This document shows positions 20,766-55,068 of a stretch of DNA of 55,068 nucleotides, piece by piece. The notes under the pieces were generated by a model. The model had not been told where the DNA came from. It did not search any database and saw nothing but the letters and a program-made list of their open reading frames with translations. Origin of the DNA: Clostridia bacterium. Its GTDB lineage: Bacteria; Bacillota; Clostridia; Oscillospirales; Acutalibacteraceae. The position numbers and the translations under genes were made by a program. The stretch lies in assembly GCA_017522205.1 (NCBI GenBank), contig JAFWZS010000024.1, positions 1 through 55,068 on the forward strand, read 5' to 3'. Each line of letters starts with the position of its first letter. Within the stretch, counting starts at the first letter, position 1.

Positions 20766-20861
20766 TTGTGCTGAAAAACTAACATTTTCAACAGAGATTT
20801 CAACCGTTTTAAGCGTTTTCCACACTGAAAAGTCTATGTAAAGGAAATAACTTTACAATAA

Positions 20862-23919: not shown

Positions 23920-23949
23920 TTGACAATAAGGAATGTAATATGATATACT
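23920..23949 (+). promoter_or_regulatory. Sigma-A promoter of ldh
   Basis: TTGACA (23920-23925), 18 bases, TATACT (23944-23949). The expected start of transcription is near 23956, just before the dyad at 23965. Confidence 0.8.
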
Positions 23950-23964
23950 TTACTGCAGAAATTA

Positions 23965-23986
23965 AATCGATAAAAAAATATCGATT
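23965..23986. promoter_or_regulatory. Dyad AATCGAT-N8-ATCGATT in the ldh leader
   Basis: Perfect 7-bp half-sites around an A-rich 8-base spacer, placed about 9 bases downstream of the expected ldh start site, a usual place for a repressor. The same half-sites with the same spacing occur at 54885-54906. It does not match the Rex operator (TTGT-N8-ACAA type) or the CcpA cre site. Confidence 0.7.
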
Positions 23987-24018: not shown

Positions 24019-24966
24019 ATGAGAAAGATAACCATTATCGGTTCGGGCAGCGTAGGCTCAACAATTGCATACACTCTTATGATTGAGGGACTTGCAAGTG
24101 AAATCGTTATGATTGACATAAATAACAAAAAGGCTTACGGTGAAGCTCTTGATATTCAGCAGGGTACACCTTTCTGTAATCCCTGCAGTGTTTATTCAGG
24201 CGAGTATGCGGATGCTGTCGATTCTGATATTGTTATCATTACCTCAGGTGCTGCAAGAAAGCCGGGTATGTCAAGGCTTGACCTTGCACAGACAAATGTT
24301 GACATTCTTAAAAGCATAACTCCTGAAATTACAAAATACGCTAAGGATGCAGTTTACATTATCGTAAGCAATCCCGTTGACGTGCTGACTTATGTGTTCT
24401 GCAAAATTTCAGGTATTCCCGAGGAAAGAGTAATCGGCTCAGGTACAATTCTTGACACAGCAAGACTCAGAGCGAAGCTTGCAAAGATTTATGATATAAA
24501 TCAGAGAAATGTTCATGCCTATGTAATGGGCGAACACGGAGACAGCTCCTTTGTGCCATGGAGCCTTGCAAATATTTCAAACATCCCCATTGAGCATTGC
24601 AGCACATCAATTGTCAGAGCAGACGGAAAGCTTTATCCTGAAATTGATTTTGATATTGTTGAAAACTATGTCCGTAACTCAGGGGCAAGGGTTATTCAGG
24701 ACAAGGGTGCAACCTTCTATGCTGTATCAGCATCGGTGTGCCACATCTGCAGAAGTCTTTTAGGCGGTGTAGATACGCCTCTCACCGTTTCAACAATGCT
24801 TCACGGTGAATACGGTATTGACGATGTTTGCCTCAGCCTTCTCAACATTGTAGGCAGACATGGCGCACACAGTAAAATGCTCTTGCCGCTTACAACAAGA
24901 GAGGTTATTGCTCTTCAGAGAAGTGCCAAATGCCTTAAGGATATTATTGCACAGATTGAAATATAA
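24019..24966 (+). CDS. ldh: L-lactate dehydrogenase
   Basis: A 315-aa enzyme reducing pyruvate to L-lactate with NADH. The N-terminal ITIIGSGSVGSTIAYTL is the NAD-binding loop, with the Asp for NADH in VMIDINNKKA. YVMGEHGDSSFVPWS (about residue 175) holds the catalytic His, and the IVSNPVDVLTYV and GSGTILDTARLR segments are typical of lactate rather than malate dehydrogenases. It is the normal length and stands alone between its own promoter and a terminator. The leader carries a dyad shared with the gene at the right edge, likely PFOR, suggesting joint control of pyruvate use. Confidence 0.95.
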   Translation: MRKITIIGSGSVGSTIAYTLMIEGLASEIVMIDINNKKAYGEALDIQQGTPFCNPCSVYSGEYADAVDSDIVIITSGAARKPGMSRLDLAQTNVDILKSITPEITKYAKDAVYIIVSNPVDVLTYVFCKISGIPEERVIGSGTILDTARLRAKLAKIYDINQRNVHAYVMGEHGDSSFVPWSLANISNIPIEHCSTSIVRADGKLYPEIDFDIVENYVRNSGARVIQDKGATFYAVSASVCHICRSLLGGVDTPLTVSTMLHGEYGIDDVCLSLLNIVGRHGAHSKMLLPLTTREVIALQRSAKCLKDIIAQIEI

Positions 24967-54807: not shown

Positions 54808-54836
54808 TTGACAAAGACCGTACGAAATGATAAACT
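54808..54836 (+). promoter_or_regulatory. Distal promoter upstream of the PFOR-like gene
   Basis: TTGACA (54808-54813), 17 bases, TAAACT (54831-54836). An inverted repeat CCGTAC-N15-GTACGG (54818-54844) brackets the -10 box. Confidence 0.65.
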
Positions 54837-54884
54837 CAGTACGGCGAATGAGAAAGGAGAGAAGATTTTTTGAAAACAACAGTT

Positions 54885-54906
54885 AATCGATAAAAAATAA
54901 TCGATT
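54885..54906. promoter_or_regulatory. Dyad AATCGAT-N8-ATCGATT upstream of the PFOR-like gene
   Basis: Same half-sites and spacing as the dyad in the ldh leader (23965-23986); only the A-rich spacer differs slightly. It lies between the distal and proximal promoters, about 48 bases before the proximal -35 box. A tiny frame (TTG start at 54870, behind AGGAG) ends inside it. Confidence 0.7.
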
Positions 54907-54953: not shown

Positions 54954-54982
54954 TTTACAACTGGACATTTAAGTGATACAAT
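54954..54982 (+). promoter_or_regulatory. Proximal promoter of the PFOR-like gene
   Basis: TTTACA (54954-54959), 17 bases, TACAAT (54977-54982), about 65 bases before the start codon. Confidence 0.7.
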
Positions 54983-55047: not shown

Positions 55048-55068
55048 ATGGCAAGAAAAATGAAAACC
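55048..55068 (+). CDS. nifJ: Start of a probable pyruvate:ferredoxin oxidoreductase (partial)
   Basis: Only seven codons (MARKMKT) are in the window, behind a strong AAGGAGG site. In Clostridia, PFOR proteins typically begin MARKMKTMDGN, so this is the best reading, but seven residues cannot prove it. PFOR turns pyruvate and CoA into acetyl-CoA, CO2 and reduced ferredoxin. The long upstream region with two promoters and a dyad shared with ldh fits a central fermentation enzyme. Confidence 0.55.

Follow-up and report, generated by a model that had tools for sequence, protein, structure and literature searches.

The stretch of DNA analysed here (55,068 nucleotides, the window) carries one inverted repeat twice, in the leader of the lactate dehydrogenase gene ldh and before a PFOR-like gene, and the question that it raises is which regulator, if any, reads this repeat at both places. 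Based on sequence comparison, we conclude that both dyads are probably operators read by a divergent branch of the NADH sensor Rex, a separate clade to which we give our own label, type 2, with a half-site WATCGATA and usually a 6-bp spacer.

A pattern scan of the window finds AATCGAT-N8-ATCGATT at 23965-23986 (dyad 1, AATCGATA-AAAAAA-TATCGATT, in the ldh leader, the proposed type 2 Rex operator) and at 54885-54906 (dyad 2, AATCGATA-AAAAAT-AATCGATT, before the PFOR-like gene, the proposed second operator), both exact, just as a preliminary description of this DNA had reported. That description had also proposed scanning the whole genome (G000, 82 contigs, 1,448,875 bases or 1.45 Mb, 73.7% complete). 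In it the two window copies are the sole exact ones, where an order-3 Markov model trained on the window expects 0.0025, and a control with the pattern reversed gives 0. Allowing up to 3 mismatches, the window has 4 matches versus 3.6 expected, and therefore the exact form of the dyad is what counts. The N6 form introduced above, WATCGATA-N6-TATCGATW, shows no excess at 2-3 mismatches in the window's genome either (14 matches in total versus 19 for the control). Dyad 2 has 1 mismatch to this form, and a third site, also with 1 mismatch, is found on contig C46 of the same genome, about 200 bp upstream of a NuoE/HoxE-like gene whose score is below the curated cut-offs. The window has 96 perfect inverted repeats of 7 bp separated by 3-12 bases, of which two kinds occur twice, whereas 12 Markov windows together have one such kind. 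The second kind, TGTAAAG with a 7-bp gap, is found at 20837 and 20871, 34 bases apart.

Dyad 1 belongs to the gene at 24019-24966 (forward strand), whose 315 aa product is above two curated L-lactate dehydrogenase cut-offs (NCBIfam TIGR01771, 330.6 bits, cut-off 303.55). The promoter-like scan gives a TTGACA-N18-TATACT site at 23920-23949 on the same strand, with a TG before the second hexamer; the ldh leader has 2 promoter-like sites where shuffles have 1.7. From the start expected by this site, the dyad begins at about +10, close to the 9 bases or so given in the preliminary description, and it is placed for simple repression. The nearest ldh relative is that of the MAG RGIG895 (L007), with an LDH protein 97% identical and a similar TTGACA/TATACT pair. 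There the dyad keeps 22/22 bases in a leader that has diverged on both sides of it (32/60 identical upstream, 16/32 alignment columns identical downstream), which bears out the conservation before an ldh orthologue that the preliminary description had looked to. RGIG895 has a second ldh (L024), 71% identical to the window's ldh, with a leader that lacks the dyad. It is very improbable that the repeats arose by chance, or that they serve as a hairpin in the leader RNA and not as a protein site. A hairpin would suit the ldh dyad, which would be transcribed and where an 8-bp stem is possible (-6.0 kcal/mol for the 22 bases), but in relatives many sites appear to be upstream of the promoter, so that they would be untranscribed; chance has to contend with two exact sites against 0.0025 and with the conservation of one of them within a diverged leader.

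As a definition of the element, AATCGAT-N8-ATCGATT is too narrow and we abandoned it: 4 of 200 family genomes match it, the window's own and three others, and two of the three other matches (L004, L005) fall inside a long open frame. The family-wide element, from 398 family genomes, is WATCGATA-N6-TATCGATW, which occurs exactly in 23 of them, while the control columns have none. There are 27 exact sites once overlapping pairs are merged, and according to our own reading of the loci, 23 of them precede rex, ldh, adhE or alcohol dehydrogenase genes: 15 are before rex, 5 before iron alcohol dehydrogenase-like genes, 2 between adhE and a LysR-type gene, and 1 before ldh. Two of the other four lie about 370-390 bp from an [FeFe]-hydrogenase-like gene below its curated cut-off. 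For these assignments, 16 proteins encoded next to exact and related sites were compared with the family models, and the others were assigned by N-terminal similarity. A site with 1 mismatch is also found before a sulfide/dihydroorotate dehydrogenase-like FAD/NAD-binding subunit in two genomes (G003, G414). The spacer of the half-site pair ranges from 5 to 7. Five loci (L111-L113, L117, L118) have three octamers with a 14-bp period, not two, an arrangement to which two protein dimers, or a larger complex, might bind. In L100, L102, L110, L116 and L078, the dyad is the core of a longer inverted repeat, of about 50 bp in L100. The base frequencies of the 41 sites that we collected reflect the way in which these were selected, and we left them unused.

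The same pair recurs before ldh. Among the best 80 of at least 518 ldh loci, 10 have an N6 pair (≤2 mismatches) within 220 bases before the gene (L007, L011, L012, L013, L018, L037, L055, L068, L072 and L078), and the remaining 503 kb of those 80 loci have none. Canonical Rex sites (≤2 mismatches) are present in other ldh leaders and in 0/10 of the dyad-bearing ones.

The PFOR-like gene is cut by the contig end at 55068, such that the window includes its first seven codons (55048-55068, forward strand), MARKMKT, a start that we take to be PFOR-like by its resemblance to typical PFOR N-termini. Its leader has 7 promoter-like sites versus 2.0 expected. Dyad 2 lies between two of these candidates, both on the forward strand: at +43 to +64 from the upstream one (TTGACA-N17-TAAACT, 54808-54836) and at -104 to -83 from the downstream one (TTTACA-N17-TACAAT, 54954-54982). 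A tiny TTG-to-TAA frame of 7 codons at 54870-54893 (MKTTVNR), after a GGAGA-like stretch, ends within dyad 2; this frame may encode a leader peptide or be there by chance. The preliminary description had suggested that a shared redox operator ties both genes to one regulator, and such an operator for ldh and the PFOR-like gene is plausible. The dyad is rare and is kept before ldh, and its redox role is proposed because dyads elsewhere precede NADH-linked fermentation genes. The part concerning PFOR fares less well: in the nearest relative, RGIG895, there is no counterpart of dyad 2 at ≤1 mismatch, the sole dyad there being the ldh one, and therefore the case for joint control of ldh and PFOR comes from the window's genome.

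The Rex proteins of these genomes are of two types. Type 1 has TASQIRQDLNCFGGFGQQGYGY, and type 2 has roughly (G/N)(E/D)VQVRKDLAxVSGxGKPKxGY. Where the sequences are known, type 1 scores at least 70 bits with PF06971 and type 2 less than 68; the remaining genomes are typed by that score. In a tree of 70 rows, in which type 1 is thinned to every third, the 42 type 2 rows group into a single clade (SH-aLRT 98) that excludes type 1 and three solved Rex proteins. All four type 2 proteins submitted (those of L120, L109, L108 and L114) score 238-288 bits with NF003994, for which the cut-off is 130, and residues 23-220 of the L120 Rex align with 3wg9 with E = 1.1e-31, the NAD(H) domain included. The two types differ at residues 43-45, 49, 52, 60 and 61, and the residues at the DNA-contact positions separate them cleanly: type 2 has Arg48 and Lys49 in 44/44 cases and type 1 has Gln49 in 73/73, and at positions 60/61 type 2 mostly carries Pro-Lys or Pro-Arg, type 1 Gln-Gly. 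In the nearest relative, RGIG895, two rex genes were found, both of type 2. PF06971 finds no rex gene in the window's own genome, an assembly 73.7% complete; the organism's type 2 rex, which we infer, would fall in the part absent from it.

The strongest result is one that was not sought. In the leaders of the rex genes themselves, a half-site pair with spacer N5-N7 (≤2 mismatches) is found for 32 of 44 type 2 genes versus 0 of 73 type 1 genes, counted as distinct genes. The spacers in those 32 leaders are N6 in 22, N7 in 9 and N5 in 1; 12/44 have no pair, and type 1 leaders have none at spacers 3 to 10 even with 3 mismatches. After removing 15 loci that had been chosen for their dyad, the pair remains in 17/29 type 2 versus 0/73 type 1 leaders (p = 5e-12); some of those 29 belong to genomes selected for a different dyad. 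The original hypothesis did not include the N7 form: N7 pairs were first met in a control column and then traced to the type 2 rex leaders of a subclade that lacks N6, where 8/10 rows have one, as does L170, which is outside the tree.

The association also appears genome by genome. We define as possible type 2 the 72 of 398 genomes with a weak Rex match or at least two Rex matches. The exact dyad is in 22/72 of them versus 1/326 others, the one being the window's own (p = 5e-17), a link that is partly built in because many exact sites sit in the type 2 rex leader itself. Apart from the window's own, each of the 22 dyad genomes has a Rex match that scores like type 2, and 50/72 possible type 2 genomes are without the exact dyad. 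In a genus sample of 30, sites with ≤1 mismatch occur in 4/6 type 2 genomes versus 1/24 others, again the window's own (p = 0.003). For the ldh loci, Rex was searched in 50 of 79 genomes, all 10 with the dyad and 40 others, and type 2 Rex is present in 8/10 with the dyad versus 7/40 without (p = 4e-4). One of those ten, L011, has a 2-mismatch site in a genome where no Rex was found. Comparison across relatives shows the conservation at ldh, the kind of gene targeted and the tie to type 2 Rex.

Correlation alone cannot name the protein that reads the dyad, and a third regulator, co-inherited with type 2 Rex, could be the one. In its favour, two genomes (G435, G452) have dyads and no type 2 Rex, and neither Rex nor a LysR-type gene is found in the window's assembly. 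We nonetheless regard it as quite improbable, since the pair stands in the own leader of type 2 rex in those 32/44 cases, amid varied surroundings, as autoregulation predicts. The G435 site and one of the two G452 sites adjoin no recognised redox gene.

Ordinary Rex was our first idea for the reader of the dyad and the LysR-type neighbour came after it; both were given up. The LysR-type reading, in which the dyad is the site of the adjoining regulator, activating from about -61, and the Rex link is one of neighbourhood, was first favoured because both operators are present in L115, L119 and L120; the genomes in question proved to contain Rex of both types. It draws on a LysR-type gene flanking many dyad sites and on several sites being just upstream of a -35 box. 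LysR-type genes are present in 63/398 genomes, in 14/23 with the dyad versus 49/375 others (p = 4e-7), and within type 2 genomes the dyad occurs in 14/31 that have the LysR-type gene versus 8/41 that do not (p = 0.02). Those same 8/41 are cases of the exact dyad with type 2 Rex and no LysR-type gene, whereas the converse combination, a LysR-type gene without possible type 2 Rex, has the exact dyad in 0/32 genomes; with neither gene it is in 1/294. A LysR-type gene is at the same locus for 7/32 of the pair-bearing type 2 rex leaders, a count that can be low given loci of 1.4-3.9 kb, and it was not found in the window's genome (73.7% complete). The seven genomes with exact sites outside the rex leader have both type 2 Rex and the LysR-type gene in 7/7 cases, and therefore cannot tell the two regulators apart. 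A LysR-type regulator may act at some of these promoters; as the reader of the dyad it fits less well than type 2 Rex, leaves the sites as a whole unexplained, and is in our view unlikely.

Some promoters combine two Rex operator words. In 7 of the 22 site loci L099-L120 (L101, L107, L110, L115, L116, L119 and L120), the dyad is followed, toward the gene, by a canonical Rex site (≤3 mismatches) whose start is 51-56 bp away; the L120 copy is exact and seems to extend over the -10 box. Type 1 Rex is present in all seven genomes. In the genomes of L111-L113, no type 1 Rex was found, and there is no canonical site beside the dyad. Judged by eye, the dyad at the two-operator promoters is near -61, a position that would suit an activator or a second operator. 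There, type 2 Rex would activate, or relieve repression by type 1. That type 2 is a parallel second NADH sensor with its own operator language, and that both Rex proteins act jointly from sites about 50-56 bp apart, is a doubtful extension of the proposal. Another arrangement is seen in L106, where TTGTGAATGTTTTCACAA, of the TTGTGAA-N4-TTCACAA form, follows the dyad at a distance of 193 bases, on the flank that faces away from rex. We also considered the mixed half-sites TCGTTA and TTGATA as a continuum toward the new word, and discarded them: several are in genomes where only type 1 was found.

Returning to type 2 Rex as the preferred reader of the window dyads, binding, a response to NADH and repression are what we infer for it by analogy with Rex. 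A type 2 dimer with NAD+ would occupy the site just past the ldh start and keep the gene from being transcribed; as the NADH/NAD+ ratio rises the dimer would come off, turning lactate formation on. Via dyad 2, PFOR would probably be switched on together with ldh. Type 2 Rex would favour TATCGATA-N6-TATCGATA and the ldh dyad over TTGTTAA-N4-TTAACAA, and NADH would release it. The preliminary description had proposed an uncharacterised sensor, a suggestion that we replace, as the dyad is distributed along with one clade of Rex, an NADH sensor already known. The regulator family is most likely one already known and the operator word new. Among the literature matches listed, no title reports this operator for Rex; Ravcheev 2012 or RegPrecise may have it. 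Rex sites are commonly predicted by the canonical word, as in Caproicibacterium (PMC9600882, from the available text), and such searches would overlook the sites reported above. With a second operator word that goes with a recognisable Rex clade, it would become possible to predict, for many uncultured Clostridia, how NADH controls the formation of lactate, ethanol and hydrogen.

Compared with canonical clostridial Rex, type 2 is alike in protein family, by NCBIfam and the solved structures, and in having a dyad in the leaders of its genes. The canonical operator is TTGTTAANNNNTTAACAA, as the available text of the papers gives it for C. thermocellum Rex_2471 (PMC8457756) and C. bescii Rex (PMC6391272). 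Canonical sites in the window are at chance level (7 at ≤3 mismatches versus 7.7 expected), and the window dyads fit neither TTGTTAA-N4-TTAACAA nor TTGTGAA-N4-TTCACAA. The preliminary description, which saw no match to the CcpA consensus either, was right that the dyad does not match the Rex consensus, yet when the two words are aligned by their centres the half-sites differ at 2/6 bases: the canonical one is TTGTTA and that of type 2 is TCGATA plus an outer TA, base 4 being C instead of T and base 6 A instead of T. In the complex of T. maritima Rex with its operator (7WB3), as described in the available text of PMC8836258, Arg48 contacts G5, Lys49 contacts G7 and A8, and the wing reaches bases 4 and 3 through Arg60 and Gly61. 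Arg48 and Lys49 are also those of type 2 (44/44), and the new half-site retains T3, G5 and A8; the wing differs, with mostly Pro-Lys or Pro-Arg in place of Arg60-Gly61, and base 4 is C, not T. These paired changes in wing residues and operator bases offer a direct test of the way in which Rex specificity changes. C. thermocellum itself has a second, divergent Rex, Rex_1799/Cthe_0422, with 34-36% identity to characterised Rex (PMC8457756), which resembles type 2 in being a divergent second Rex in a clostridium that also holds a canonical one; the available text of that paper gives an operator for Rex_2471 only. According to the same source, canonical Rex controls PFOR in C. thermocellum and, by the predicted regulon, lactate dehydrogenase, and PFOR is under canonical Rex in C. 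bescii (PMC6391272). The targets proposed for type 2 resemble those reported for canonical Rex in the available text of these papers (PMC8457756, PMC6391272): rex itself, lactate dehydrogenase, PFOR and hydrogenase.
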